Source of the DNA: Planctomycetota bacterium
GTDB lineage: Bacteria; Planctomycetota; Planctomycetia; Planctomycetales; Planctomycetaceae
DNA: 64,000 nt
Assembly (NCBI GenBank): GCA_030836185.1
Contig: JAURQH010000031.1
Span: 124,001-188,000, forward strand
Direction of reading: 5' to 3'
Position numbers and translations under genes: made by a program. The notes below the pieces were generated by a model. It was given only the letters and a program-made list of their open reading frames with translations, made no database searches and had not been told where the DNA came from. Position 1 is the stretch's first letter, and each line of letters begins with the position of its first letter. Of this stretch, positions 24,187-42,364 are shown piece by piece.

Positions 24187-25884
24187 ATGGCGGAAGACTG
24201 GCTACAACAATTGGTGGATGAAGGGACGATCTCTCCAGATCAGCTTCAGGAAGCGCTCTCGCTGGCATCCAGCCACGGGATTTCTGCGGAAGAAGCTCTC
24301 AATAAACTGGGATATGTTTCTGCCGAGGATATTGCAGCAAAGCAGGCTGCGCAATTTGGTTACGAGTTTGTCGATTTGGAAGGTCGTGAAATTCCCTCCA
24401 GCATCATCGGGCTTGTGCCAGAATCGGTGGCTCGTGAGAACATCGTGATCCCATTGGATCGTGATGAGGAATCGCTGACGATTGTCATTCATGATCCCAT
24501 GAAATACGAAGTTCTCGATAAACTCCGATTTATCCTGAATTGCGAAATCAAAGTGACTTTGTCCGGCAAAGAGGCCATTCAAGCCGCCATCAACCGCCAC
24601 TATGGGCAAGATGAAACGGAATCTGTCGACTCGATGATTACGGAGTTCACGGAAACGGCCATCGACTTCACCGCGGTTGAAGCGGCTGAGGCGATGCAGG
24701 TTGCGGAAGAAGATGATAGCGCTCCTGTCATTCGGCTGGTCAATCTGGTGATCAGTGAAGCCGTCAACATGCGGGCTTCCGATATTCATATCGAGCCGTT
24801 TGAAGACCGAATTCGAGTACGTTATCGAATTGACGGCGTTTTGATCGAACGTGACTCACCTCCACGACGCTTATTGGGAGCGATTGTTTCACGTATCAAA
24901 ATTATGGCACGGGTGGATATCTCTGAGAAGCGTCGCCCGCAGGACGGACGCATCAAAACGACGATCAACGGTAAGGATTATGACCTTCGTCTCTCTATTA
25001 TGCCCACCAATCATGGCCAAGCCGTGGTCATGCGTATTCTGGACCGTGAGAGCATCAAAATCGGGATTAAAAATCTCGGGTTCGGAGACGAGAACTACAG
25101 AAACTTCCAGAATTTGATCAGACGTCCCAATGGGATTTTCCTTGTGACGGGGCCAACCGGATCAGGGAAGACGACCACTTTGTATAGTGCGCTGGGCGAG
25201 CTGAATCGCCCGGATCGTAAAATTATTACCGCGGAAGACCCGGTGGAATACTACTTGGCGGGTATCAACCAGGTTCAGGTGAAGGCCGACATTGGACTGG
25301 ACTTTGCTCGAATTATTCGTGCGATGTTGCGACAGGCTCCCAATGTGATTCTGGTTGGTGAGATTCGCGATAACGAAACTGCCGACATGGCAATTCAAGC
25401 ATCTTTAACTGGACACTTAGTATTCAGCACACTTCATACGAACGATGCGCCCGGTTCTGTGACACGTCTTATCGATATGGGCGTACAGCCATTTTTGGTC
25501 GCATCTTCGGTGATGGCGATTATGGCACAGCGTCTGGTGCGGGTCTCTTGTGCAAAATGCAAGGCTCCTTACACACCCGATCCGAGCGAATTGCAACACT
25601 TTGATATTACCGATGCGGAAGCAGCGGAAGCGGTCTTCATGCGGGGTAAGGGGTGTAATACCTGTCAGCATAGTGGGTTTAAGGGGCGAAACGCGGTCTT
25701 TGAGTTGATGGTGATGAATCCCACACTCCGTGAGATGACGTTCAAGAGCGAATCGACACAAAACATTCGCCGGCAAGCCCGGCTCTTCGGCATGAAGACT
25801 CTGGTTGAAGATGCGAAAGAGAAGGCTATGAAAGGTGTTACGACTCTTTCTGAGGTCTATAAACTGGCGACGAGTCGAGATTAA
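24187..25884 (+). CDS. GspE/PilB-type assembly ATPase (first copy)
   Basis: A 565-residue secretion/pilus motor. An N-terminal MshEN-like region (residues 1-150) with LVDEGTISPDQLQEAL precedes the hexameric ATPase: Walker A GPTGSGKTTT at 322-331, Walker B VGEIRDNETADMA, a His box GHLVFSTLHTNDAPGS, and a C-terminal zinc tetracysteine motif (CAKC...CNTC). ATP hydrolysis drives addition of pilin-like subunits. It is separated from pilT by 613 bases and therefore probably has its own transcript. Confidence 0.9.
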   Translation: MAEDWLQQLVDEGTISPDQLQEALSLASSHGISAEEALNKLGYVSAEDIAAKQAAQFGYEFVDLEGREIPSSIIGLVPESVARENIVIPLDRDEESLTIVIHDPMKYEVLDKLRFILNCEIKVTLSGKEAIQAAINRHYGQDETESVDSMITEFTETAIDFTAVEAAEAMQVAEEDDSAPVIRLVNLVISEAVNMRASDIHIEPFEDRIRVRYRIDGVLIERDSPPRRLLGAIVSRIKIMARVDISEKRRPQDGRIKTTINGKDYDLRLSIMPTNHGQAVVMRILDRESIKIGIKNLGFGDENYRNFQNLIRRPNGIFLVTGPTGSGKTTTLYSALGELNRPDRKIITAEDPVEYYLAGINQVQVKADIGLDFARIIRAMLRQAPNVILVGEIRDNETADMAIQASLTGHLVFSTLHTNDAPGSVTRLIDMGVQPFLVASSVMAIMAQRLVRVSCAKCKAPYTPDPSELQHFDITDAEAAEAVFMRGKGCNTCQHSGFKGRNAVFELMVMNPTLREMTFKSESTQNIRRQARLFGMKTLVEDAKEKAMKGVTTLSEVYKLATSRD

Positions 25885-26497
25885 AATGCCCGATTATATT
25901 TTCAGTTAGGTTGATTTCTCGACGGTTTCTCTTCGGTCAAGTGGTCTTTACATTCATTAACTCAAGTCTCAGTAATGAGATGTGGCAAATTTAAATCTGG
26001 ATTGCAGTGTTTTGTTTGGTGGACGGTTTTGGCTTTGGAGGACAGGTATAGCGAAACTTGAGTGTTTTATTATGCAACACTATTTTGAGGCATGTTTAAC
26101 GACACAAATCAGGAGTTGTCGTGATGGGAAGTTGCCACTTGGGGAGTTTCCCGATCATCGACAGGGAGAACATAAATCGGTCATTTTTTTGAATTGCAGG
26201 TTCCGACCGCGAATAATCGAAGTGCTGCCCGGATGATGTCTTTCATTGGGCGGTTGCCAATCGGCAAAGTTTCACGTTCATCTCATTGCAAGAATTCGAA
26301 AGTAGTTCATTGATTCCTTTCTGATGATTTTGCATTGAGTATCTGGTGTCTGTGCATTGGATGGAAACAAATCGCGATCGTGGTCAAGGAGCAAAGCTGT
26401 TCAATCAAAAACCATGAAGGAAAAGCTGGTAACCCACTTACGTCAATTGACGTTTATTACAGCAGTGATTGACTTGTTTTGACGAGAAAGAGATCGC
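25885..26497. other. Intergenic region with two perfect inverted repeats
   Basis: About 613 bases between the first GspE/PilB gene and pilT. An 84-codon frame from a GTG at 25982 looks like chance. Two inverted repeats stand out: TTGCC-AATC-GGCAA at 26254-26267, and the 14-base palindrome ACGTCAATTGACGT at 26441-26454, which lies 43 bases before the pilT start. Either may be a regulator site; no regulator is encoded nearby. Confidence 0.4.
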
Positions 26498-27616
26498 ATG
26501 GCACATGTTCAAATTGACAAATTGCTCGAAACTGTGGTGAAAGAGTCCGTCTCGGACCTTCACATCACGACCGGGCAACCTCCGGTGGTACGTTCGGGTG
26601 GCCGTATGCTGAGGCTCGAGACAAAAACTCTTGAGCCCGAAGATACTGTCGCTCTGATGAAGTCGATTACTCCTGAGCGAAATCAGCAAGAACTTCAAGA
26701 GGTTGGAGGAACCGACTTCGGGTTTGCCTTTGGAGATAAAGCCCGCTTTCGTGTGGCCGTGTTCAAGCAACGCGGTCAAATCGGGATGGTGCTGCGGCGT
26801 ATTCCCAATGAGTTCCTGACCTTTGAGCAGTTGGGGCTTCCGCCGGTTATTGAAGATATGATTAAACGACCTCGTGGGCTGTTTCTCGTGACGGGGCCAA
26901 CGGGTAGCGGTAAGACAACCAGTTTGGCGAGTATGATTAACTGGATGAACGATAATCTCGATCATCATATTATCACACTCGAAGACCCGATTGAGTATTA
27001 CCACGACCATAAAAAATCAACAATCAACCAACGCGAGATTGGTGTTGATGTTCCCGACTTCCCCGAAGCATTGCGTCGGGCGTTGCGTATGGACCCCGAT
27101 GTGATTCTCGTGGGGGAGATGCGAGACCTCGACACGATTTCGGCGGCGATTACGGCTGCGGAAACCGGACACGTCGTTTTTGGAACACTCCACACGACCG
27201 GGGCTCAAGGAACGGTTGACCGTATTATCGACGTGTTTCCGACAAGCCAGCAAGAGCAGATTCGAACTCAATTATCAGTGGCGATCATCGGGATTCTGTC
27301 ACAGGCATTGTTGCCCAAAAAGATCAAGGGGTTGGTGGCTGCCTACGAACTCCTCGTGGTGACGCCGGCGATTGCCAACCTGATTCGTGAAGGGAAGACG
27401 TTCCGAATTAACTCATCCATTCAGACCGGAAAAAAATACGGCATGCAGTTGTTGGATGATGCGTTGTATGACCTTTGGAAGAATGACATCGTCGAAAAAG
27501 ATGATGTTCTGATGAAGTCCAATGTGCCGGGCGAATTGAAGGCCCGCATTCAACGTGCAGAAATGGGAATACTTGAGGACGAGGATGAAGAGGATGATGA
27601 CGACTTCGAGGATTGA
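26498..27616 (+). CDS. pilT: PilT-type retraction ATPase
   Basis: A 372-residue ATPase. It lacks the large N-terminal domain of PilB and starts with the PilT-type VSDLHITTGQPP segment. Walker A GPTGSGKTTS is at 133-142, followed by Walker B LVGEMRDLDTIS and the His box GHVVFGTLHTTGA. The usual AIRNLIRE-type helix is close to ATPAIANLIREGK. An unusual acidic tail (DEDEEDDDDFED) ends the protein. PilT disassembles type IV pili to power retraction; it lies 90 bases ahead of the second GspE/PilB gene. Confidence 0.92.
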   Translation: MAHVQIDKLLETVVKESVSDLHITTGQPPVVRSGGRMLRLETKTLEPEDTVALMKSITPERNQQELQEVGGTDFGFAFGDKARFRVAVFKQRGQIGMVLRRIPNEFLTFEQLGLPPVIEDMIKRPRGLFLVTGPTGSGKTTSLASMINWMNDNLDHHIITLEDPIEYYHDHKKSTINQREIGVDVPDFPEALRRALRMDPDVILVGEMRDLDTISAAITAAETGHVVFGTLHTTGAQGTVDRIIDVFPTSQQEQIRTQLSVAIIGILSQALLPKKIKGLVAAYELLVVTPAIANLIREGKTFRINSSIQTGKKYGMQLLDDALYDLWKNDIVEKDDVLMKSNVPGELKARIQRAEMGILEDEDEEDDDDFED

Positions 27617-27706
27617 TATTTCGTGAAGCAGTTTTCATTCGTTTTCAAATTGAAACCTGTCAGTTGTGTTGCACGACTGGCAAAAAAATAACCAAGGTAG
27701 AAAATC

Positions 27707-29410
27707 ATGGCCCAGCGTAAATTGGGACAAATTCTGGTCGATCTGGGATACCTCTCTGAGGATCAGCTTTGGGATGTGCTTGAAGAACAAAAGCAAAGCC
27801 CAGGCGAAGTCATCGGGCAGGTTGCGATCCGCATGGGGCTCGTCACTGATGATCAAGTGGCTGAGGCATTAGCCGAGCAATGGGGCATGCCGGTCATCAG
27901 TTTGTTGGAAACAACCATTCCGCCGAAGGTTCTGGAACTTGTTCCGCAGACGATGTCCGAAATCTATAAGATCATGCCGATTTCGTTGAAGGACTCTGTT
28001 CTGACGGTCGCCATGTCAGAGCCGCAGAATCTGGAAGCTCTGGACGATCTGAGGAACTTTCTTGGTTATGAAGTCCGCGGTGCGGTTTCGAATGCCAAAG
28101 ATGTCGAAACAGCGATCAGTCGATACTACGCCGACCGTCAAGACAGTATTGAGGATGTGATTGGTCAGTTAGAGGATGACGATCTCGATAATGCAGAGCA
28201 CGGCTACGATTTGTCCTCTGATGAAGAAATGGCCGACGCCGCGCCGATTCGCAAGTTGCTCAATATGGTTTTGCTGCTGGCGATTCGCGATCAGGCGAGC
28301 GACATTCATTTCGAGCCGTTTGAAGACGAGTTCAAAATTCGAGTTCGTGCAGACGGCGTCTTGTACGAAATGGTTCCCCCGCCACGCCACTTGGCAAATG
28401 CGTTGGTTTCCCGTGTTAAGATTATGGCCGATCTCGATATTGCCGAACGTCGTCTGCCGCAAGATGGTCGTATCGAACTCAATGTGGGGGGGAATCCGGT
28501 CGACTTGCGTGTCAGCATCTTGCCGACACTTAATGGTGAAGCGGTCGTCATGCGTGTTCTCGACCGCACCGTGGTGCAGCTCGATCTCAGTAAGATCGGG
28601 ATGGACCCGAATACGCTGACTCGATTTCGAACAGCCATCAAGCGACCGAACGGGATTGTTCTGGTGACGGGGCCAACCGGTTCCGGGAAAACCACGACGC
28701 TCTATTCTGCGTTGCAGGAACTCAACGATATTGAGTCGAAGTTGATTACCACAGAAGACCCGATTGAATACGACATTGACGGTATTATCCAGGTGCCGGT
28801 GAACCCTGATATTCAGGTCACTTTCGCGAATGTGCTGCGAGCGATTTTGCGTCATGACCCTGACCGAATTCTGGTCGGAGAAATTCGAGACTACGAGACG
28901 GGTGAGATTGCTGTGCAAAGTGCTCTCACCGGGCATCTGGTGTTTAGCACATTGCACACGAACGATGCTCCGACGGCCATTACACGTCTGCGCGACATGG
29001 GCGTTCCTCCGTTTCTGATCACGGCGACCGTGGAAGCGATTCTTGCTCAGCGACTGTTGAGGAAAATTTGCACGGAATGTCGGACGGAGTTCGACCCCAG
29101 TGACGAGTTGTTGATGGAATTACAATTACCGATCGAACAGGCACGTAAGTACAAGTTCTATTATGGCAAAGGCTGCAGTCGCTGTAATAACTCGGGCTAC
29201 AAAGGTCGTACAGGAATTTATGAGTTCATGGAAGTGACGGATGAAATTCGCGACATGATTGTTGCGGATGCGTCGGTGGACGACATTCGAAGCTTTGCCA
29301 GAACTCAAGGGATGACAACATTGCGTGAAGCAGGACTCAAATTGATCTTTGACGGCATTACCACAATCGACGAATTGGTTCGTGAGACCGTCGTCGAAGA
29401 AATCGGATAA
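27707..29410 (+). CDS. GspE/PilB-type assembly ATPase (second copy)
   Basis: A 567-residue paralogue of the gene at 24187. N-terminal MshEN-like region (LGQILVDLGYLSEDQLWDVL), then Walker A GPTGSGKTTT at 322-331, the same residue number as the first copy, Walker B VGEIRDYETGEIA, GHLVFSTLHTNDAP and a zinc tetracysteine motif (CTEC...CSRC). It lies just before the platform gene gspF/pilC, so it is the better candidate motor for the pseudopilins encoded downstream. Confidence 0.9.
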   Translation: MAQRKLGQILVDLGYLSEDQLWDVLEEQKQSPGEVIGQVAIRMGLVTDDQVAEALAEQWGMPVISLLETTIPPKVLELVPQTMSEIYKIMPISLKDSVLTVAMSEPQNLEALDDLRNFLGYEVRGAVSNAKDVETAISRYYADRQDSIEDVIGQLEDDDLDNAEHGYDLSSDEEMADAAPIRKLLNMVLLLAIRDQASDIHFEPFEDEFKIRVRADGVLYEMVPPPRHLANALVSRVKIMADLDIAERRLPQDGRIELNVGGNPVDLRVSILPTLNGEAVVMRVLDRTVVQLDLSKIGMDPNTLTRFRTAIKRPNGIVLVTGPTGSGKTTTLYSALQELNDIESKLITTEDPIEYDIDGIIQVPVNPDIQVTFANVLRAILRHDPDRILVGEIRDYETGEIAVQSALTGHLVFSTLHTNDAPTAITRLRDMGVPPFLITATVEAILAQRLLRKICTECRTEFDPSDELLMELQLPIEQARKYKFYYGKGCSRCNNSGYKGRTGIYEFMEVTDEIRDMIVADASVDDIRSFARTQGMTTLREAGLKLIFDGITTIDELVRETVVEEIG

Positions 29411-29488
29411 CAGGCTTCACTCGTGTGGTGAAGTGACATTTATAACAGAAACAATTGGGCCTTAGTTTAGACCAACAGGAGATGATCC

Positions 29489-30733
29489 ATGCCAGTATTT
29501 CAGTATGAGGCGATGGACAATAACGGGATGGAAGTCAAAGACTCCATCGAAGCACCGACAGAGGCCGATGCCCAGTCGATGATTCGAGAGCAGGGGTACT
29601 TTGTAACTCGAATCGCCGAAAAGCGTGCCAAGAAAAAGAAGACCGTCGAGAAGAAAGGGAAAGCGGCCGCGAAAAAGAAACGCGGCTTTTCCATGGGGAA
29701 GGTCAAAGGGAAGCACCTTTGTACTTTCACTCGTCAGCTCTCGACGCTCCAGGATGCCGGTTTGCCGATTCTGCGTTCATTGAGAATTCTGGAAGGTCAG
29801 GCGAAACCGGGGCCGTTAAAGAACTCTTTGATGGGGGTGATCGAAGACATTGAGTCAGGAAGTACTCTTTCTGAAGCCATGTCGAAGCAGCCTAAAGCGT
29901 TCGATAACCTCTACTGTAATATGGTGAAAGCCGGTGAAGCCGGTGGTGCGTTGGAAATTATCCTTCAGCGCTTGGCCGAGTTCAAAGAACGGGCTCAATC
30001 GCTCAAACGAAAAGTCCAGGGAGCCATGATTTATCCGGCGGCTGTGATCTCGGTCGCCACCTTGATTGTGTTCGGGATTATGAAATGGATCATTCCGAAG
30101 TTCAAAGAGATTTTCCTGGGCTTCGATACCGAGTTGCCCGAAATGACCGTCATGCTGATAACGATGTCTGACTACATCAGTAAGTATTGGTACTTGCTCC
30201 CGGCGGGGCCCATCGTGTTCTTTCTGCTGATCAAAATTATCAAGAAGAACAAGACGGGAGAGTTTGCCGTCGACTGGCTATCGCTGAGGATACCGCTGCT
30301 CGGGAATATTCTTGAGAAGACCTGCGTAGCGAGGACGGCGAGAACCTTGGGGACGCTCATTGCGTCCGGGGTGCCGATTCTGGAGGCCATTGTGATTGCC
30401 CGCGATACGGCGGGCAACGCGGTATTTCGGCGTGCGTTCGATAAAATTTACGCCGCGATTCGCGAAGGGGAACCAATTGCGGTTCCTCTAAAAGAAGCCC
30501 GTATTGTCGACGATATGGTCGTCAATATGGTGGACGTGGGAGAAGAAACCGGTGCTCTCGATACGATGTTGTACAAAGTCGCCGATGTGTACGACGAAGA
30601 AGTGTCGGTGCTGGTGGAAGCGCTCGTGAACCTGCTCGAACCGATCATGGTTGTCGTGCTCGGTGTGATCGTCGGTTTCATCGTGATCGCACTCTTCCTG
30701 CCGTTGATCAAACTGCTCAACGACCTGTCCTGA
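29489..30733 (+). CDS. GspF/PilC inner-membrane platform protein
   Basis: A 414-residue membrane protein with the two-repeat T2SSF architecture: TRQLSTLQDAGLPILRSL opens the first repeat and ARTARTLGTLIASGVPILEAI the second, each followed by a long hydrophobic helix; the last membrane helix lies near the C-terminus. The N-terminal strand region (MPVFQYEAMDNNG) is joined by an unusually lysine-rich linker (about residues 45-75, KKKKTVEKK and AAAKKKRG). It transmits motor movement to the growing pseudopilus. Confidence 0.92.
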   Translation: MPVFQYEAMDNNGMEVKDSIEAPTEADAQSMIREQGYFVTRIAEKRAKKKKTVEKKGKAAAKKKRGFSMGKVKGKHLCTFTRQLSTLQDAGLPILRSLRILEGQAKPGPLKNSLMGVIEDIESGSTLSEAMSKQPKAFDNLYCNMVKAGEAGGALEIILQRLAEFKERAQSLKRKVQGAMIYPAAVISVATLIVFGIMKWIIPKFKEIFLGFDTELPEMTVMLITMSDYISKYWYLLPAGPIVFFLLIKIIKKNKTGEFAVDWLSLRIPLLGNILEKTCVARTARTLGTLIASGVPILEAIVIARDTAGNAVFRRAFDKIYAAIREGEPIAVPLKEARIVDDMVVNMVDVGEETGALDTMLYKVADVYDEEVSVLVEALVNLLEPIMVVVLGVIVGFIVIALFLPLIKLLNDLS

Positions 30734-32897: not shown

Positions 32898-34033
32898 TGA
32901 ACAAGACTCAAAAAACAGAACGACATTCAGGTTCAGTGCTTGCCAGCAATCGTTCCGGTTTCACACTGGTGGAACTGCTGATCACCGTCAGTATCTTGCT
33001 TGTGTTGGCAGGCATTACCGTGACGACGCTCAATTATTCTGCCGAGAAAGAGAAGATCTCCAATGGTGCCCGCGACATTCAAACATATCTGAAAGGAGCC
33101 CGTGACCGCGCCATCTTTCGTCGTGCCGAGACTGGCGTTCGAATACTTCTCGATCAAAACGGTCCGGTAAATGGAGCGGGTAATCCGCGATGTGCTGCCA
33201 GCATGGTTTACATCGGTGTTCCTGAACCGAGAACTGGAACGATTTCCATTGAGTTTGATACCAACAATCCGGCCAATCATCTGAGGCGATTGAGATTCTG
33301 GTCACCAGGACCAGATATGCTGCCAGGTACGGCTATGGCAGATGACAATACTGATACATTAGTTGATAATACAAGTGAATTCAGTCCTGATACCGCAACT
33401 GACGATATAGAAAATACGGCTTTACGCGACGAATTCACACGTCTCAACAATCTAGGCCTACTAGGGCCAGGCTCGGAAATTACCCTGTTGCCCGGTGGTA
33501 GTACGGAATTGACTTACACGCTTGCAGGTGGTCCTGGAGACTGGCGGCTTTCATCGAACTATGTAGCCGGAAACGTCTCTGGCTGTATGGATATCAATTT
33601 TAGAGTTAAATTGTTGCCGTCTGTTTTGCCGAATCAGCAAGCCCGTGAACTCCCGAAAGGGGTGGTTATCGATCTGGAAGCGTGCCGACGAGCGGGGACG
33701 ATCCCGTCCAACTGGTTCAACAGTACCAACAATCGATACAGCAATTACATGGACATACTCTTCTCGCCTCGTGGTGTCGGGGCAGGAACTTGGTCGGCTG
33801 AAGGTCAAATTCAACTACTGCTCGCGGATGTGGCAGATGTCGAAAAAGGAGCCTTCGACCCGACCAGTGACCCCTACACGAACCGCACAAATATTGGCCG
33901 GGAGCGTGTGATCTCGATCAATGCTCTCTCGGGCAATATCTCGCTCACTTCGCTGAATCCCGCTGACAGCGATGGAAACAACATTCTCGATGATCCATTT
34001 CTTTACGCTGAAACGGGGGTCCGCGCACCATGA
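32897..34033 (+). CDS. Minor pseudopilin (GspH/FimT-like)
   Basis: A 378-residue protein with cleavage motif RSG^FTLVELLITV (Gly21) and a hydrophobic helix followed by DIQTYLKGARDRAIFRRAETGVRI, as in GspH/FimT minor pilins. The rest is a large globular domain with Asn/Asp-rich loops and the ending NPADSDGNNILDDPFLY. Its stop overlaps the ATG of the next gene (ATGA). A role at the pseudopilus tip is inference from the family. Confidence 0.75.
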   Translation: MNKTQKTERHSGSVLASNRSGFTLVELLITVSILLVLAGITVTTLNYSAEKEKISNGARDIQTYLKGARDRAIFRRAETGVRILLDQNGPVNGAGNPRCAASMVYIGVPEPRTGTISIEFDTNNPANHLRRLRFWSPGPDMLPGTAMADDNTDTLVDNTSEFSPDTATDDIENTALRDEFTRLNNLGLLGPGSEITLLPGGSTELTYTLAGGPGDWRLSSNYVAGNVSGCMDINFRVKLLPSVLPNQQARELPKGVVIDLEACRRAGTIPSNWFNSTNNRYSNYMDILFSPRGVGAGTWSAEGQIQLLLADVADVEKGAFDPTSDPYTNRTNIGRERVISINALSGNISLTSLNPADSDGNNILDDPFLYAETGVRAP

Positions 34034-35487
34034 GAAAATCCACCCCCTTTCAAATTAATTCATATTCGGGCCACCGCAAAGGCTCGACACTCTCCGAAGT
34101 GTTGATCTCGGTTCTCGTGTTGGGGATCGGCGTGATCTCGGTCGCGACGCTGTTTCCGCTGTCGGTGTTGCGGGCGCTGCGTGCCAATCAATTCACACAA
34201 GCCACCGTGCTACGGCACAACGCAGAAGCTAGCATTGGGGCTCTCGATCTGGCTAATAAGTATCAATTCTTCGGCCCCGATAATCGCCCCGGTCAGTCTG
34301 ATGTCAACGACAATAGTGCCAATGGTACAGACGCGACAGGTTGGCATCCCGGTCCAGATGGTTTCCCCGGAGACTCAGGGGTCGATGATGATGGAATCAA
34401 TGGGGTGGATGATGCTGGAGAACTCGGTTTTGCGAATACCGACGACTATCGAATCTGGGATAATGACGAACTGTTTTCGCCTGGTTCGGATGACGTCAAT
34501 CGTGTGCTGATTGATCCCATCGGCTACCACCTGATGGGTGACTTGAGCGGAAACTGGAACCGATCCTTCGGCAACACCGCCGATCCGAGTTCTCCAGGTC
34601 AGCCGCTATTACGCCGTGTGAGTGGTGGTCATCCCGGCAACAACGGGAACAGTGGCTTAAGTTTCAATTTCACACGAGCAGAAGCCAACGCATTGGCCAC
34701 ATTGCAGGATCAATTTACCACGTTGTTTGATGCTGAAGTGGCATCCTCAAATACGATCGGTACTCCCGCCAGAATTAATAGGATTACATTGCCAACTCGC
34801 GTTGATGGCGGAACGGGGGATGAGTTGGCGGCTATCGTGCAAAGTGGTGGAGCAGTCAATGTGACAGTATTCGCCAACGGAGCCGGTTTCGTTCGGCAGT
34901 TACTCGCGGAAGACTCAAACGGTAATGATAAGCTCGATTCGGGCGAAGATGTCAACGGTAACGTTACGCTCGAAGAAACTCAGACTCGTACTCTCTTTTT
35001 TGATCCTCCATTACCGGCTTCCATCGGGACCACAGCAGTCGAACGTGTGGTTGTTCAATCACTCAGCGAAGACTTCACCTGGATGATTTCTGCTCGTCTT
35101 GAATCACGCGATTTGGAAGTGGATATGGATGTGGTGGTCTTTCATAAACGCCGTTTCGAGGATGATGACGAACGAGTTTTCAATTGCATCGTCAGAGATA
35201 CCGATCCGGGTGCTGATAGCATTTACGACGAAATCGTCGTCGATTACTCATCCGGTAATGGAAATCGCCCCTTTGCCAAAGCGGGGGACTGGATGCTCGA
35301 TGTCAGCAATAACTATTGGTATCGCGTGCAATCGATTCGCAGCGAAGGGCAGGATACGGATGGTGACGGCAACCTGGAGATGGTCTTGCGGATTGATCGC
35401 TCGCTGCTCGATTTGGACCGCAATCAGGAAATTCAGGCGGCGTTTATACGAGGTGTTGTTGAAGTCTATCCGATCGGGAGGCAATAA
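34030..35487 (+). CDS. Minor pseudopilin (GspI/PilV-like)
   Basis: A 485-residue protein with cleavage motif RKG^STLSEVLISVLVLGIG (Gly18, Glu+5). The hydrophobic helix is of PilV/GspI type. The globular part holds several Asp/Gly calcium-loop-like motifs (GVDDDGINGVDDAGELG, DSNGNDKLDSGEDVNG, DTDGDGNLE). GspI proteins are near 120 residues, so this is strongly enlarged. It is coupled at both ends: ATGA overlap upstream and no gap before the next ATG at 35488. Confidence 0.75.
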   Translation: MRKSTPFQINSYSGHRKGSTLSEVLISVLVLGIGVISVATLFPLSVLRALRANQFTQATVLRHNAEASIGALDLANKYQFFGPDNRPGQSDVNDNSANGTDATGWHPGPDGFPGDSGVDDDGINGVDDAGELGFANTDDYRIWDNDELFSPGSDDVNRVLIDPIGYHLMGDLSGNWNRSFGNTADPSSPGQPLLRRVSGGHPGNNGNSGLSFNFTRAEANALATLQDQFTTLFDAEVASSNTIGTPARINRITLPTRVDGGTGDELAAIVQSGGAVNVTVFANGAGFVRQLLAEDSNGNDKLDSGEDVNGNVTLEETQTRTLFFDPPLPASIGTTAVERVVVQSLSEDFTWMISARLESRDLEVDMDVVVFHKRRFEDDDERVFNCIVRDTDPGADSIYDEIVVDYSSGNGNRPFAKAGDWMLDVSNNYWYRVQSIRSEGQDTDGDGNLEMVLRIDRSLLDLDRNQEIQAAFIRGVVEVYPIGRQ

Positions 35488-37323
35488 ATGAAACAGTCAC
35501 ACAATCAAATTCAGTTCAGGCAAATTCGATTCAGAAAAACCCGATTCTGGAATGACACTCGCTACGGTTTTACCTTGGTCGAGATGCTGGTCTCCGTCTC
35601 GCTGGTCCTGATTATCATGTTGCTGCTGGCCAATGTATTTGGCTTGGCCGCCAATACGGTCGAAAAACAAAAAGGGACGGCAGAAAACGATCAGCAGGCA
35701 CGCACCTTCGTGACGATTGTCAAAGGAGATTTGTGCTCGCGGTCGTTTCGTTTCGTCTATCCGTTTAGCGAAAATGCACCCGCAGTTGATGCGGCTCTCG
35801 TTAGCGATGTCACTAAAATGCGCAAAGGATACTTTTCGATTTCCGAAAATAACCCCGATGATCATACCGACGACGTGCTGAGTCTGACGGTGGACTATTC
35901 TGCGGCGACCCCTCATTCTTGCGTCGACAATAATCAATCGCCTGTGTACGGGCAATCGACTGTGCTAACTGATGGCACGGCTGCAGCTAACGCTGCCCCG
36001 GGGGCCTATTTGCGAGCCAATCGCAATCAGCCAGAATTCGACGACGGTAATCCTGTGACCAACGATCAAGCTCGATCACGGTATGCCGAGGTCATCTATT
36101 TTCTGCGGAACGGTAACCTGTATCGTCGCGTACTCTTGATTCGTGAACCTGCAGTGGAGACATCTGATCCAGATTTTGGGAGCCCGAATTATCTGCTGAA
36201 TAATGAGATCAATGGCGATTATCCGGGAATGTCAGGCACTGAATATGCTCCATTGGGGGGCGATGGTACCGGCCCCGATCTTGGAACGGGTGAATTTAAT
36301 CGCGACCTGGATTTCTCTGCGATCTATAATTTTAATGCAACGACACCACAGCCAGTGATTTTGGCAGCAGAGCCAGGAGTTTCTGCAACTCCGGCTTATG
36401 CAGCATTTAATAATATCTATCGCGATCCCAATTCCGCATTTACAGGTACTGAAATAGAAATACCGATACAAAACTTAACACCCTCGGGGCAAGGGTTTGT
36501 GCATGCTTCACTCGGAATTCCCCATTTCCGGTTTGGTCATGACATGACCGACGGTCGGGGACGAGCCCGAGAGTATCTTCAGGCATATACCTACCCCGAT
36601 CCAGGCCCCAATAATGCAAACTCGGGAGAGTTCTTCGGACGTTTTCTACTGCAGGAAACCGCTGATAGCGGTTTCAATTATCCCGGAGCTCCCGATGTGA
36701 ACAGTCGGAATCCCTACAGTTTGGTCGATTATCCCAATCACTCGGTCGATGCGAATACGCAATTGATTACGCCCTACCATAATGAAACTTTTCGCCGGGG
36801 AGACGATATTCTGCTCTCCGGGGTCCTCGAATTCGATGTCAAAGTCTGGGATGAAGTCAGACGCGAGTTTGTCGATCTGGGAAACAACGATGGAGGCCAG
36901 TACGACATTTCCAACAACAACAACACCAATTATGGCAATTGTTACGACACTTGGCATCCAAGTTTGGCGACACCCCCTCCCTATCGACCGACCTCCGTCG
37001 GTGCCGATGGTGAGCCGGGAGACGCGGGAGTCGACGGCGACGACGGCGGCGATGACGACGACGACGGCAAGAAGGGCAAGAATAAGGTCAAGATCTGCCA
37101 CAATGGCAAGACCCTGGAAGTGAATGAGTCGGCCGTGAAGGCCCACCTGGCTCATGGGGACACGCTCGGAGAGTGCGACGACGACGACACGGGAATTGGT
37201 TGGCCGGGAACTGATGATGAAGAAGCCTCCCGGCTGAAAGCCATACAAATTATTGTCCGTTTTGTTGACCCGCAAAGCTCGCTGGTGCGACAAGTGACCT
37301 TTATCGAATCGCTGGTAGACTAG
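35488..37323 (+). CDS. Minor pseudopilin (GspJ/PilW-like) with inserted Cys/His module
   Basis: A 611-residue protein with cleavage motif RYG^FTLVEMLVSVSLVLIIM (Gly27) and a following EKQKGTAENDQQARTF helix typical of GspJ/PilW. Near the C-terminus (about residues 505-570) a GC-rich, Asp/Gly/Lys-rich stretch carries the segment VKICHNGKTLEV...AHLAHGDTLGEC with Cys537 and Cys563; outside it the chain continues RLKAIQIIVRFVDPQSSLVRQVTFI, the expected final GspJ strand. So the module is inserted just before the conserved end of the domain. Confidence 0.75.
   Translation: MKQSHNQIQFRQIRFRKTRFWNDTRYGFTLVEMLVSVSLVLIIMLLLANVFGLAANTVEKQKGTAENDQQARTFVTIVKGDLCSRSFRFVYPFSENAPAVDAALVSDVTKMRKGYFSISENNPDDHTDDVLSLTVDYSAATPHSCVDNNQSPVYGQSTVLTDGTAAANAAPGAYLRANRNQPEFDDGNPVTNDQARSRYAEVIYFLRNGNLYRRVLLIREPAVETSDPDFGSPNYLLNNEINGDYPGMSGTEYAPLGGDGTGPDLGTGEFNRDLDFSAIYNFNATTPQPVILAAEPGVSATPAYAAFNNIYRDPNSAFTGTEIEIPIQNLTPSGQGFVHASLGIPHFRFGHDMTDGRGRAREYLQAYTYPDPGPNNANSGEFFGRFLLQETADSGFNYPGAPDVNSRNPYSLVDYPNHSVDANTQLITPYHNETFRRGDDILLSGVLEFDVKVWDEVRREFVDLGNNDGGQYDISNNNNTNYGNCYDTWHPSLATPPPYRPTSVGADGEPGDAGVDGDDGGDDDDDGKKGKNKVKICHNGKTLEVNESAVKAHLAHGDTLGECDDDDTGIGWPGTDDEEASRLKAIQIIVRFVDPQSSLVRQVTFIESLVD
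36999..37200 (+). other. GC-rich inserted cassette inside a pseudopilin gene
   Basis: Bases 37021-37200 have 111 G/C out of 180 by my count, and all seven lysine codons of the Cys/His module are AAG, unlike the AAA-rich codon use of most neighbouring genes. The encoded order is a collagen-like Gly/Asp run (GDAGVDGDDGGDDDDDG), a Lys-rich linker, the CHNGKT...HLAHGD...C module, and a DDDD end. It looks like a module acquired by the gene, in frame. Confidence 0.6.
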
Positions 37324-37450
37324 AAATTTTAGATTTTAGATTTGGGATTTTCAATTTTGGAAACGACTGAAAACTGAACACTTCAAACTAAAAACTTTTT
37401 TTTGTTCCTGAGTCGTTCGGGCCACGACCGACATTTCAGGAGGACAAGTT
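37324..37450. other. AT-rich spacer with short direct repeats
   Basis: The spacer has tandem AT-rich words (TTTTAGATTTTAGATTT at 37328-37344) and an A-rich ACTGAAAACTGAA stretch, then an AGGAGGA ribosome site just before the next start. This is the only sizeable gap among the pseudopilin genes; it may be a site of past insertion or deletion. Confidence 0.4.
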
Positions 37451-40400
37451 ATGAAACGCGTCAAACAGAATTTCAAAAAACGAATTATCAAAAAACGCCG
37501 AATGTTGATCGACGAAGATCGACGGGGATCCATCATCATCGTGGTGATCACCCTGCTGTCGACGTTGATGCTGCTCGGCTTCTTCCTGTTTGCTCAAACT
37601 CAGCAAGAGGTGCAAAACGCCGAGTTCTTTGCACAGGCCGCAAAAAGATATGAGCCGTTGGATGTGGACCCCAACACGATTTTCGATGCCTATCTCCGGC
37701 AGTTGATCTTGGGTGCCGACCCCGATACCGAATACAACAGTGGTTTTTACGGCGGCTACAATTCGTTGTTGCCGCGCATGCTGGGCAGCGACTTCGCCCC
37801 TCATTCGGGTGAAGGCGTGAATGTCGTCTGGGGGGACGGTGATACGAATTTGGAATCAGTTGAAACTCCCCAACCGGATCTCGATTATGATGGAACCCCT
37901 GATGCGCCCGGAGCGATCGATTATCTGGCCATTAATCAGTCTCCCTCTGGCGTCGGTAACGTCCAGAATTACGGCAACTTACCTCAACCCGATGTCGATT
38001 ATTCCTACCCCGACCATAACTCGCCTTACTTGACCTATTATGGTTATGTCCCCGTGCTTAATCAGACCACAGGCCAACCAACCGGGGCCAAGCAATTGGT
38101 GGTGATTCCTGCGTTTCACCGTCCCGCATATATTCGAAATGCGGGAGGAGCGGGACTCCCCGCAGCAGGAAACTGGTACACTGATGCGAGTACCAGGGAT
38201 CGCGTACTTCGTCCTCACCAGAGCCATTCAGCCTTTGATGCAACGGGTACTGCCAATGGGGTCCGATTTCCGACGACGACAGTGGGTTCTTTGACAACAA
38301 CATTCTGGGGATCTGTACCGACACCGGATGACGGGCACTGGGGCGATAGTAATCTGGATGGGAACTATCAATATGACGCCGACCCAACCGGTCGCGGTTG
38401 GAATGATGCCGTCTATATGGATATTGGCTACCCGGTACAAGTCGATGCGACGACTGGCCGTCTGTTTGTCCCTTTGGTGGCGGCGACAATTTTGGACGCT
38501 GAGGCGTTGATGAATCTGAATGTTCACGGCAATTCCTCGAAGTACATTGTGCAAGGGGGGACAGGTATTAATGTTGCTCCGTTTGGAGATCCGGGTGGAG
38601 CGGGCGATTTTCTCAGTAGCTCGAATTTCGGTATCACCCGCTCTGAAATTAACCCGGGATGGGTGTTGAGTTCTGGCCCCGGTGAAGCGGCTGGAACAGC
38701 CACTGAACAGCACGAGTATTTGTTTGGCCACACGCCTGCAGGTTGGGGAGAACTCTCCAACATGGAATTGTGGAATCTGTTACATGGTCGCCCCGAATTT
38801 GGTGGTGGGTCACCGATCCCCGCTGGTCTGGGTGACAAAATTGCCCAATACGCAGGACGGCATGGCGAGGAAATCGCCTTCGATCAGGCTGCGTTATACA
38901 CCACACGCAACTCCTCAAACTTCCCCTGGCCGGGAACGACGGGAACTGATGACAACACAAACCAACTGACAGGAGTGAGTGGTGCGAATCCAGAGTTTTG
39001 GAATCCCTCGTTCGGACATCCACTCGACATCTTTGCGACCGGCACCAATGTGAATGGTGGAAATGGTCGAGTTCGGTTGCTACATACCGACACTGGTGGA
39101 CGGAATATCTTTCCGGCCTTTGGAAATGTTGCGTCCAACAGTAACGTCGCCTGGACTTCGTTGCTTGGCTCGAATCTGATGCCGAGCGGATTTGTTCGCA
39201 ACTATTTCGATGAAGCCTTGGAATCGGTTGTTGACCCCGAACTTGCGAGTTCTCAGGTGGATGATTCAATATTTGAAGTCTCGGAAAGTGCCTTGATGCA
39301 GCTTTCGAGATTTGATCTTGGTGCAACGGGAACAACCGGGCGTTTGCTCAATCTGGCATCATTCAACTTTGTCGATGGTGCCCGAGAAGAAAAGATTCGA
39401 TCAAAATTCACGACACTTTCCAGCGATTTGAAAGCGTACTCGCGCACCTATTATGGTCTCGGGCCGGCGGTAGCACGTCCTTGGGAATTTGGTGATGCCG
39501 ATACGGATGGGATCCCCGATTTTCCACCGACGCTCACAGCGATACCTCTGACTGACAATCGTCAACCGTTTCGACCCGCTTTACGCGAGTTGCTGTTTCA
39601 GGAAGTGACCGACAAAAATGCGAATGACTTTCGCAAACTCCAAAGGAAGTTGCAGGTCAATGGCGTGCTCGATTTTGATTCCATCAACGACCTTGCCTTT
39701 CGCCCGTTGACTCCACATCCCACAACTGGTGTCGGTGCAACGGCAGTTGTCAGTCAGTCCGGTTTTCGTTCCAGTCGATTTACCAATCTCCCCGGCTTTC
39801 CAACATTGCCGAGTACCAGCCCGGCGGCTCAGGAAATCTTGGCACGAATTGATCGCCAGAAATTGGCACGCGACATTTATACGATGTTATATGTCTTGGG
39901 GGGTGGAACCGATGGCACGAATTATCTAACGACGTCGAATAATCCCACACGTAACCTCTACTCACTGACTCAATGTCGCGAGATGGCACAAATCGCCGTC
40001 AATATGGTCGATTACATGGACCCCGATCACGTGATGACCAAGTTCGAATATGACATCAATCTGGCCGATGGCTGGAATCTGGACGACTACCCTTACGCGG
40101 GGACCGGATTCGGTTCAACCGATACCACGGACATTGATGCGGGTGGTCAACGGGGAGTTGTTTACGGTGTGGAAGAACAGTTGCTGGCATTAAGTGAAGG
40201 GACTGCGATTTACACTGATGTTGTCGAGGATAGTTCCAATAATCCCGTGGATCATGAAGCGACCGAATGGGATGACACCAGACGTCACCAGTTCTTTTTT
40301 CTGGAGTTAGAGAATGTTTCGGCATTCGATTTTGGAAGTGCTGGCAATCAATTCAATATTAACAATGATATTTTTCAGATTGTGGTACGTCCACAAGAAT

Positions 40401-42364
40401 GGGCAACTGGATTGGACCCCTTAGTTGATGCACCTACTACCACATTTAATGAGCGTCGTCTCACACTTCAATCAGGTGCATTGAATGGTTTAGGCACTGG
40501 AAATGATCGCCGTTTGACGATTGGTTCTGTTTCAGAACTATCAGCAAATTCTTCGTCTGCGAGCAATAACAATGTTGCCCCCGTTTTTCCGGCATCCTCA
40601 TTTCTGGAAGGGACTCAGGCACCCGCCGACGGCTCGACTCCTGGACCAGCGCGGTTTATGATTTCTCAAAACTATTCAGGCGGATCCAGCATTGGTCCCG
40701 TGAAAGTCTATCCATTTGATATTGGTGTTGGCAGTGCCGATTATCTGGACTTGCTCAATGCGACGGGTGACTTTCGGTTATTTGAAGATCCCGCTGCAGC
40801 AACTGACTACGAGGATGGTTCCGAGGTGACTGGCGCTTCGAAAGGTGCTGAAATTTTGGATTTGCCGGACCCTGCAACATTCACGCCCGCGAGCACTCGC
40901 CTTGTCGAAGTCGTACTTCGTCGGCGAGCCAATCCAAATCGCGCATTGACTGATCCAGAAGATGGCGGCCAGGCAGAAGATAATCCCTGGGTTGTCGTCG
41001 ATCGAATGCAGTTTCCTCTCGAGTATTTTGGCATCGATGACGAAATGGATGATCAAACTCGCATCGTGAATTTTCTCCAGAACTTTGGTACGAATGGACG
41101 ATTTCAACCGTTGTTTGGAGGCACTGAAGACACGGATATGGATGGTGTCTCCGATTCAATGAGCACGACCCCCTGGGACAGTTCAACCTATCAAACAAAT
41201 ACTTTAGGTGGGCTGAATGACTCCGCAACCAATCCGTTTACGATTTGGCACCATCATGCCAATCGAGATTATGTGAGCTTGGCAGAATTATTCAATATTC
41301 CGCTTTATGGGCCAGATGACCTGAATGGTCCAGATGCCCCCAATGCTCCTCTCGATGCCTCTACGGGGCGGGGACCATGGCGCGGTCTTGTTGTGAATCT
41401 TGGAGAGGACCTCAGCACAACTCCCGGCACACCTGATGTAAAGATGACAGGCACTAAAACATTTGGTCATGGTGTGCTTCATCCTGAAGGGCCGGATGGT
41501 GATCCCAATTTGACCGCGGACAACAATCGTTGGCATCGCGTGTTGGAATTTCTCGAAGTTCCCACGCGTCAAAATATCCCCGGTTTCACCGAAACGGTCG
41601 GTCGCGTTGCTGATGGAGGTCAAGACTCAATCTATCGCGACTATGGGCCATTGAATTTGAATACCATTCGCAACCCCGAAGTGTACGGCGGCATGCTGGA
41701 TGCCTTCGACATCATGAATTTCACCAATCGGACCACGGACTTTCCGGGCTTACCGGATCGTTTGGGGGATGATCACCGTTCCGATTGGTGGGCGTCATTT
41801 GCGGCCTCTCGTGATCAATATGATCCTGTGCTGTTCAATGGTGGAACAGGAACATTTGCCGCGATTCCCGGTATTCCCGGTGTGTCACGTCCGTTTCGTT
41901 CGTTGTCATTCAATGGTGGTGGAGTCGATAGTGTGCAGAGCACAATTTTAAGAGACATGCCGTTTGATACTGAGAACCGTCACTTGCTGCAAATTGGTGC
42001 TGTGAATGCCGGATCAACACTCAATGATCCTGCTGACTACACGGTCGATTATGACCTCAAAAACAAACTACTTGGTAAGGTGATGAATCATTCGACCACG
42101 CAGAGCAACACATTCTTTGTGTTCTTGCAGGTTGATTACTTTGAAGCCACGGTGGTCAACGGCATCACTCGTGTCGGTGGGAAGCTCCCCGACTCGCCCG
42201 GCTATCGTGGGTTCTATGTGGTTGATCGTGCCAAAGCTTTGGAAACTTTGACCGGTGACGATTTGCCACCAACTGTCGACAACAACACCATGCAACCGAC
42301 ATTTTCCTTCAATCAAAACTTCAATTGGCGGGCGTTGGTGTTGCACAGACAGCGTCTTAACTGA
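37451..42364 (+). CDS. Giant GspK-like minor pseudopilin candidate
   Basis: A 1637-residue protein. The N-terminus is a basic stretch, then DRRG^SIIIVVITLLSTLMLLGFFLF (Gly26) with no Glu at +5, as in GspK. The helix continues AQTQQEVQNAEFFAQAA, the GspK-type pattern. The rest is a very large extracytoplasmic region with many Asn/Gly-rich loops, Ca-type motifs (DADTDGIPD, EDTDMDGVSD) and a late PLNLNTIRNPEVYGGML segment like the 'NxNTA' helix of GspK. Usual GspK proteins have about 330 residues. No later membrane segment or catalytic motif is visible. Confidence 0.65.
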   Translation: MKRVKQNFKKRIIKKRRMLIDEDRRGSIIIVVITLLSTLMLLGFFLFAQTQQEVQNAEFFAQAAKRYEPLDVDPNTIFDAYLRQLILGADPDTEYNSGFYGGYNSLLPRMLGSDFAPHSGEGVNVVWGDGDTNLESVETPQPDLDYDGTPDAPGAIDYLAINQSPSGVGNVQNYGNLPQPDVDYSYPDHNSPYLTYYGYVPVLNQTTGQPTGAKQLVVIPAFHRPAYIRNAGGAGLPAAGNWYTDASTRDRVLRPHQSHSAFDATGTANGVRFPTTTVGSLTTTFWGSVPTPDDGHWGDSNLDGNYQYDADPTGRGWNDAVYMDIGYPVQVDATTGRLFVPLVAATILDAEALMNLNVHGNSSKYIVQGGTGINVAPFGDPGGAGDFLSSSNFGITRSEINPGWVLSSGPGEAAGTATEQHEYLFGHTPAGWGELSNMELWNLLHGRPEFGGGSPIPAGLGDKIAQYAGRHGEEIAFDQAALYTTRNSSNFPWPGTTGTDDNTNQLTGVSGANPEFWNPSFGHPLDIFATGTNVNGGNGRVRLLHTDTGGRNIFPAFGNVASNSNVAWTSLLGSNLMPSGFVRNYFDEALESVVDPELASSQVDDSIFEVSESALMQLSRFDLGATGTTGRLLNLASFNFVDGAREEKIRSKFTTLSSDLKAYSRTYYGLGPAVARPWEFGDADTDGIPDFPPTLTAIPLTDNRQPFRPALRELLFQEVTDKNANDFRKLQRKLQVNGVLDFDSINDLAFRPLTPHPTTGVGATAVVSQSGFRSSRFTNLPGFPTLPSTSPAAQEILARIDRQKLARDIYTMLYVLGGGTDGTNYLTTSNNPTRNLYSLTQCREMAQIAVNMVDYMDPDHVMTKFEYDINLADGWNLDDYPYAGTGFGSTDTTDIDAGGQRGVVYGVEEQLLALSEGTAIYTDVVEDSSNNPVDHEATEWDDTRRHQFFFLELENVSAFDFGSAGNQFNINNDIFQIVVRPQEWATGLDPLVDAPTTTFNERRLTLQSGALNGLGTGNDRRLTIGSVSELSANSSSASNNNVAPVFPASSFLEGTQAPADGSTPGPARFMISQNYSGGSSIGPVKVYPFDIGVGSADYLDLLNATGDFRLFEDPAAATDYEDGSEVTGASKGAEILDLPDPATFTPASTRLVEVVLRRRANPNRALTDPEDGGQAEDNPWVVVDRMQFPLEYFGIDDEMDDQTRIVNFLQNFGTNGRFQPLFGGTEDTDMDGVSDSMSTTPWDSSTYQTNTLGGLNDSATNPFTIWHHHANRDYVSLAELFNIPLYGPDDLNGPDAPNAPLDASTGRGPWRGLVVNLGEDLSTTPGTPDVKMTGTKTFGHGVLHPEGPDGDPNLTADNNRWHRVLEFLEVPTRQNIPGFTETVGRVADGGQDSIYRDYGPLNLNTIRNPEVYGGMLDAFDIMNFTNRTTDFPGLPDRLGDDHRSDWWASFAASRDQYDPVLFNGGTGTFAAIPGIPGVSRPFRSLSFNGGGVDSVQSTILRDMPFDTENRHLLQIGAVNAGSTLNDPADYTVDYDLKNKLLGKVMNHSTTQSNTFFVFLQVDYFEATVVNGITRVGGKLPDSPGYRGFYVVDRAKALETLTGDDLPPTVDNNTMQPTFSFNQNFNWRALVLHRQRLN

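Follow-up and report, generated by a model that had tools for sequence, protein, structure and literature searches.

A small Cys/His module in a loop of a planctomycete PilW-like pilin and its relatives in exported proteins

Results

Genes and features of the locus

The window, that is, the whole stretch of 64,000 nucleotides analyzed here (contig JAURQH010000031.1 of a Planctomycetota bacterium), contained a gene at 35488–37323 encoding a PilW-like (GspJ-position) minor pseudopilin of 611 amino acids. Near the end of this gene, we found an in-frame segment with a small Cys/His module that was missing from the same gene of relatives and recurred in exported proteins of many phyla. The gene was assigned from its open reading frame, its N_methyl match, the gene order and its orthologues across the family. 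All the features described were present on the forward strand.

The host protein contained a prepilin-type N-terminal methylation motif (GFTLVEML..., amino acids 26–47, 35563–35628). The match to N_methyl (PF07963) scored 23.8 bits, above the Pfam cut-off of 21.2, in agreement with an earlier sequence-only reading that had called the host a pseudopilin; the whole genome contained 51 N_methyl matches. The pilus machinery was present at 24187–30733, where profile matches identified a PilB/GspE-like ATPase, PilT, a second PilB-like ATPase and PilC/GspF. The PilT match was above its cut-off, and the matches of the PilB-like ATPases and PilC/GspF were strong and slightly below the equivalog cut-offs. 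These genes were followed by GspG/H-like pseudopilins, a PilV-like minor pseudopilin (34030–35487; TIGR02523 at 6.4e-5, under its cut-off), the host protein and a protein of 1637 amino acids (37451–42364), which was placed in the PilX/GspK position by its location only and had no Pfam or NCBIfam match. By this gene order, the host protein is predicted to hold the PilW/GspJ position, and with the assembly genes PilB, PilT and PilC adjacent, its role in a filament is a predicted one.

Extent and composition of the inserted segment

The stretch without a counterpart in the relatives was found from 37018 to 37188, in frame, with a conserved core from 37084 to 37176. It began with a 22-residue linker rich in Asp, Gly and Lys (37018–37083), delimited by the orthologue alignment and of low predicted local distance difference test (pLDDT) score in the full model, in which 18 of the 22 third codon positions were G or C (GC3). 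The linker was followed by the 31-residue core KVKICHNGKTLEVNESAVKAHLAHGDTLGEC (amino acids 533–563), recognized by a profile match and by AlphaFold2 models of a beta-beta-alpha fold, and by a right-hand linker of four Asp residues (37177–37195; direct-repeat family D1), with (GAC)4 also present at the left edge. The core contained a Cys-His pair at the hairpin tip (37096–37101; C11-H12 of the model), the conserved residues H-L-A-H-G-D at the end of the helix (37144–37161; H27, H30 and D32 of the model) and a second conserved Cys (37174–37176; C37 of the model), the probable disulfide partner of C11.

The GC content of 37018–37188 was 0.626 and its GC3 was 0.825. Eight genes of the operon served as the codon-use reference; windows of the same length in them had a mean GC3 of 0.514 and a maximum of 0.789, and the value of the segment was unmatched. 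All seven Lys codons of the segment were AAG (Fisher p=0.001 vs. the operon) and 13 of the 14 Asp codons were GAC (p=7e-6). When the Asp and Gly codons were removed, the GC3 was 27/33 in the segment vs. 244/467 in the remaining host gene, and thus the bias does not merely reflect Asp/Gly repeats. The excess was weaker in the 31-codon core alone, as 1.6% of windows were as high. The earlier statements that 111 of 180 nucleotides in 37021–37200 are G or C and that lysine is encoded by AAG only were exact on recounting. The composition fits acquired DNA and is not proof of it. No inverted repeats were found around the insert; the flanking repeats were solely (GAC)n repeats of Asp codons.

Orthologues and the insertion site

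The orthologue search covered 59 relatives, and orthologues of the host gene were found in most genomes of the family. Both orthologues of the same genus (G001 and G002) lacked the module; that of G002 was 69% identical to the host protein. The loop of G001 contained the Asp-rich spacer NDDADGNTDEADERGWIGTDD, and that of G002 was shorter and contained PPPPP. The module was present in none of about 25 aligned family orthologues, and a profile search found it nowhere in the other listed family genomes. Between the conserved PPYRP and KAIQI motifs, the loop of the family orthologues was empty or consisted either of a spacer rich in Asp or of a longer segment with WP..DGxVxWE at its end; its length ranged from almost nothing to >100 residues, with unrelated contents. 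The insert was located directly before the conserved C-terminal strands of the pilin, so that the proposed position just before the conserved end was confirmed by the alignment, and the comparison of orthologous pseudopilins that had been suggested as a check gave same-genus and family orthologues without the segment. The absence of the module from congeners and family orthologues, together with the variability of the loop, indicates a lineage-specific insertion in a permissive hypervariable loop.

A stretch of 84 nucleotides from the right edge of the insert (37197–37280) was identical to the G002/L003 orthologue; no longer exact match was present in the 4.4 kb compared with G002. Beyond it, a block of about 90–96% identity continued through the intergenic region, at an overall DNA identity to G002 of 79%. 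Mosaic identity to G002 was observed elsewhere too, with tracts of 95–100% at 34728–34890, 35448–35535, 37190–37460 and 38114–38217 (background 79%), one of them non-coding, which suggests recombination between lineages. Since the operon contains these further tracts of high identity, the 84-nucleotide tract suggests recombination near the insert and does not prove it.

The longer loop segment, ending in WP..DGxVxWEAVDN, was found at the same place in nine PilW orthologues (L006, L008, L015, L020, L021, L023, L024, L026, and L030), and no Pfam match was obtained for it in the orthologues scanned. The PilW loop that precedes the last hairpin appears to be a general site of grafting. The neighboring minor pseudopilins of the operon contained the Asp-rich spacer GPDGxPGxAGxDDDxDGxxDDxSELGWPGSDD (34351–34446 and 33308–33382), which was also present at other sites in relatives and is possibly a calcium-binding loop.

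Definition and distribution of the module family

The core matched the family profile with an E-value of 5.5e-20 (the profile includes the core sequence itself), and independent relatives were 74–76% identical to it. The eight residues invariant in the family (C-H, H27, H30, G31, D32, G35, and C37) were all intact in the window copy, which also had a family-level profile score. The species genomes were scanned with a single strict pattern, AHLAHGDx[LYV]G; 205 relatives were confirmed and 79 loci were kept. The Cys-His pair was present in 81 of 81 aligned rows and the last Cys was also invariant; neither was part of the search pattern, and rows were extracted where a C with H, N, F, or Y after it lay within range. 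Two length forms were found, a short form with CHxGKT and a long form with CHxPPGNPxxxHT. The window copy was of the short form and was nearest to copies of Chloroflexota and Bacteroidota.

Carriers were found in more than 10 bacterial phyla, including Bacteroidota, Chloroflexota, Planctomycetota, Omnitrophota, Verrucomicrobiota, Fibrobacterota, Acidobacteriota, Myxococcota/Deltaproteobacteria, Zeta- and Gammaproteobacteria, Gemmatimonadota, Actinomycetota, Dadabacteria, and Patescibacteria. The archaeal carriers in the species-genome scan were Pacearchaeota (DPANN), and plasmid carriers were found in haloarchaea, Photobacterium, and Rufibacter. A module match at E<=0.001 was present in 15 of 392 sampled genomes of Planctomycetota, and 15 of 148 genomes of the phylum to which the Flavobacterium genome G433 belongs had a module match. 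The module gave no credible match in sequence searches of Pfam, NCBIfam, PHROGs, and PDB, and its motif strings were not found in a literature search. Weak matches to KPC beta-lactamase were attributed to chance AxxAHLxxGD-like similarity, and a chance or low-complexity origin of the core was ruled out by strong-scoring relatives in many phyla. By sequence comparison, the module is a real and widespread family that is unnamed in the resources searched.

No module was found in the phage records. Sixteen IMG/VR contigs (L159–L174), some of them >100 kb, encoded the module; some of these are possibly misassigned bacterial DNA, and therefore we make no claim of spread by phages. A four-repeat query for the subfamily without His had no match in the viral contigs.

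In a deltaproteobacterial metagenome-assembled genome (G436; L195–L211), the module was matched 21 times in many proteins, including tandem pairs at C-termini, and some of the copies were 90–95% identical in DNA and stood in different contexts. A mobile DNA element that carries the module and inserts in frame in surface-protein genes like an exon would account for these copies, for the foreign-looking codon use of the segment and for the Asp-codon repeats on each side of it. However, sequence and profile searches found no second copy in the genome of the window, and the insert had no inverted repeats. By these results it does not qualify as a mobile element, for which multiple copies alongside unoccupied sites, repeats at the termini or a duplicated target would be expected. 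Many of the G436 copies have flanking sequence in common and so resemble plain duplicates of genes or segments. Such an element is very unlikely. The suggestion of a movable module shared among surface proteins thus stood across genomes and proteins, as domain shuffling, and failed within this genome; that of exon-like DNA mobility was not borne out. Of the observations named beforehand as speaking against the suggestion, only the lack of another copy in the genome was made, as the orthologues lacked the segment and codon use was non-uniform.

Carrier proteins and pilins as hosts

Sixty-four carriers were complete at the 5' end, and by a crude rule, the N-terminus of 60 of these resembled a signal peptide or transmembrane segment. 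Sorting tails of the type IX secretion system (T9SS) were present in 27 of 82 carriers, with the module typically immediately before the tail. Other carriers contained SprB, FecR, Ig-like, HYR, TSP3, or N_methyl domains or were lipoproteins, and the smallest, of about 80–100 amino acids, consisted of little beyond a signal peptide and the module. The linkers of the module in the other exported carriers were often rich in Asp and Gly, and the link of this Cys/His pattern with exported proteins on such linkers, proposed in the earlier reading, was thus found again in many carriers.

In Planctomycetota, the carrier could be classified in 13 other genomes, and in 9 of these it was pilin-like, against 51 N_methyl matches in the whole genome of the window (binomial p of about 1e-9 at an assumed base rate of 5%, and 5e-7 at 10%). 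These carriers were PilW-like (L032, L033, L039, and L045), GspG-like (L035–L037 and L044), or H-X9-DG/DUF1559-like (L038, L043, L046, and L153–L158), and pilins that also contain FecR (L142 and L149) were found in addition. The pilin leader motifs were identified by visual inspection; position 5 was Asp, not Glu, in two of the GspG-like carriers. The carrier was very often a pilin in Omnitrophota too; in two loci (L069 and L102), the module was in a PilW flanked by PilV and PilX, like that of the window, and in Dadabacteria (L130) it was in PilX of a PilV-PilW-PilX-type cluster. Judged by their gene order, these hosts are in the same functional slot as the window pilin.

The presence of the module in pilins of other Planctomycetota would also follow if it were ancestral in the pilin and had been lost by the relatives. 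This would demand that both congeners and every other family genome examined had lost it, and the other planctomycete pilin copies were mostly of the long CHxPPGNP form or the CHxPGT form and stood in differently built pilins. Since the window copy is short and nearest to those of Chloroflexota and Bacteroidota, the graftings look independent, and an ancestral module is extremely improbable.

In one planctomycete genome (G271), the module was found, intact or degenerate, at a similar position in nine pseudopilin paralogues (L038, L043, L046, and L153–L158). A conserved family of about 460 amino acids (L085, L105, L121, L122, L214, L215, and L219–L221) contained the module near residue 100 and had the N-terminus MGGKAALLLVLGFS. 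DUF4900 was present in its scanned members. Where inspected, the family adjoined small transmembrane proteins resembling non-canonical pilins.

Predicted structure and residue sets

AlphaFold2 predicted the module (81 sequences) as beta-beta-alpha with a mean pLDDT of 86.8 (strands 7–12 and 15–20, helix 21–29). The full pilin was modeled with a mean pLDDT of 66, as a long N-terminal helix and a beta-rich head. In this model, the module had the same fold at mature residues 507–528 (strands 507–511 and 514–518, helix 520–528) and was flanked by low-confidence stretches at 476–506 (pLDDT <50) and 533–550, followed by the last hairpin at 558–581. Neither the module nor the whole pilin had a significant Foldseek match in PDB; the GspJ structures 3nje and 3ci0 stood out for the whole pilin by probability, not by E-value.

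Among viral models, the best fold matches of the module included NUMOD3 and HNH/homing-endonuclease beta-beta-alpha units at a root mean square deviation of about 1 Å. These would fit a module that bound nucleic acid, for example in DNA uptake by the pilus, but no match was significant (best E 0.087) and the topology is a generic one. The majority of carriers are not pilins, and both ends of the window module are acidic. We regard this role as improbable.

In five of the G271 paralogues (L153–L156 and L158), both Cys residues were lost and the His residues were mostly kept, whereas in L157 both Cys were kept and the His/Asp residues were replaced (VCRVPAGNPDGSQTLTVGASEVMGYLAEGGYLGRC). The tandem copies of L083 and L159 also kept both Cys, with His and Asp changed (CYKG..YLANGATLGSC). 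The helix-end residues co-varied with H12 in the paralogues and tandem copies, and C37 was lost jointly with C11. The Cys pair and the His/Asp set thus vary separately, which fits a disulfide and a distinct ligand site of three His and one Asp. A C11-C37 disulfide is likely, and the chances that His12, His27, His30, and Asp32 hold a divalent metal are about even. The metal is made plausible by His-rich stretches adjoining the module in L142, L149, and L100. In L142 and L149, the pilins that also contain FecR, a His-rich stretch such as HSHWHAHANGERHRHEHPSQNNAHHGK was found directly before the module.

The loop might accept any soluble in-frame insert, in which case the module would be a functionless filler of the window pilin. 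The orthologous loops, which vary from almost nothing to long unrelated contents and hold PPPPP in the nearest relative, agree with such neutrality; the eight intact invariant residues, the predicted fold and the far-above-chance share of pilin hosts in Planctomycetota do not. We consider the neutral explanation rather unlikely.

Discussion

Taken as a whole, the data are probably best explained by the grafting of a small display domain onto a pilin of the pilus tip. The fold and the grafting are well supported. The module would be an autonomous extracellular domain of about 31–38 residues, beta-beta-alpha in fold and closed by the Cys11-Cys37 disulfide, which appears to have been inserted in frame, on Asp/Gly/Lys linkers, in a PilW-type pilin at a permissive loop preceding the last beta-hairpin. 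From its PilV-PilW-PilX position, the host would belong to the pilus tip complex, and the module would be displayed at the tip. Three groups of residues, C11-H12 (where strand 1 ends), H27-H30-D32 (where the helix ends) and C37, are predicted to meet at one end of the fold; there, the cluster of His12, His27, His30, and Asp32 may provide a binding site, with a divalent metal as the likeliest ligand. Such a metal-assisted site at the tip may serve adhesion or ligand capture.

Several points weigh against this explanation. No curated PilW/GspJ profile of Pfam or NCBIfam reached its cut-off in the host protein, and T2SSJ matched an orthologue of it only below cut-off (E 0.069). The match of the pilin model to XcpW (3nje_B) was weak (probability 0.30, E 0.65) and came from a model of pLDDT 66. 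The metal or ligand is putative, and the clustering of the residues is deduced from topology, not from measured coordinates. The His set is missing from part of the family, and a metal site is thus not universal. This particular insertion is a single copy in a single species, and therefore selection for it is not established.

Modular type IV pilins have been described previously, with a vWA module grafted in PilB of Streptococcus sanguinis (Raynaud et al., 2021; PMC8179133). The window pilin appears to act like these and, by sequence criteria, belongs among them: it has a class III leader with the N-terminal methylation motif, its extra domain is also present in non-pilin proteins (T9SS cargo, lipoproteins, FecR proteins, and others), and by prediction alone this is a separate domain on a linker. 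The likeness lies in the expected display at the tip, and ComZ and GspK show inserts in the beta-sheet region. However, the window module is tiny, has no database signature and is located internally, in a loop that precedes the last hairpin, rather than at the C-terminus. With GspJ/PilW of the GspI-J-K tip complex, the pilin shares the PilV-PilW-PilX/GspK-like gene order, the N-terminal pilin helix and the beta-rich head, whereas with 611 amino acids it is several times larger and no hidden Markov model of the family scored above its cut-off.

The module resembles C2H2 zinc fingers in its Cys/His beta-hairpin and in the following helix ending in HxxH. It differs from them in being exported and in its spacing of CH, HxxHxD, and C; the nearest Foldseek match had an E-value of 4.8, and the zinc-finger ligand spacing was not found, nor any Pfam match even at E 10. 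Its predicted models also share the hairpin-helix geometry of the beta-beta-alpha units associated with NUMOD and HNH proteins, but these are intracellular nucleases with no Cys pair or His set recorded, and the match was non-significant.

Domain shuffling of the module between genomes and proteins is supported, as far as sequences can tell. Tentatively, and with less confidence than in the grafted display domain, the CH/HxxHxD/C unit may be an undescribed family of extracellular metal- or ligand-binding domains that spread by such shuffling, preferentially on pilus-tip minor pilins, as a shared and interchangeable binding head of pili. The module is widespread and small enough to be synthesized, and its invariant Cys and His residues are open to simple mutation tests. 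With a pilin that has and one that lacks a single small module within the same genus, a before/after pair is available by which the grafting model of modular pilins becomes directly testable. The survey of modular pilins expected undefined modules to escape its detection (Raynaud et al., 2021; PMC8179133), and the module described here is an example of those it expected to miss.
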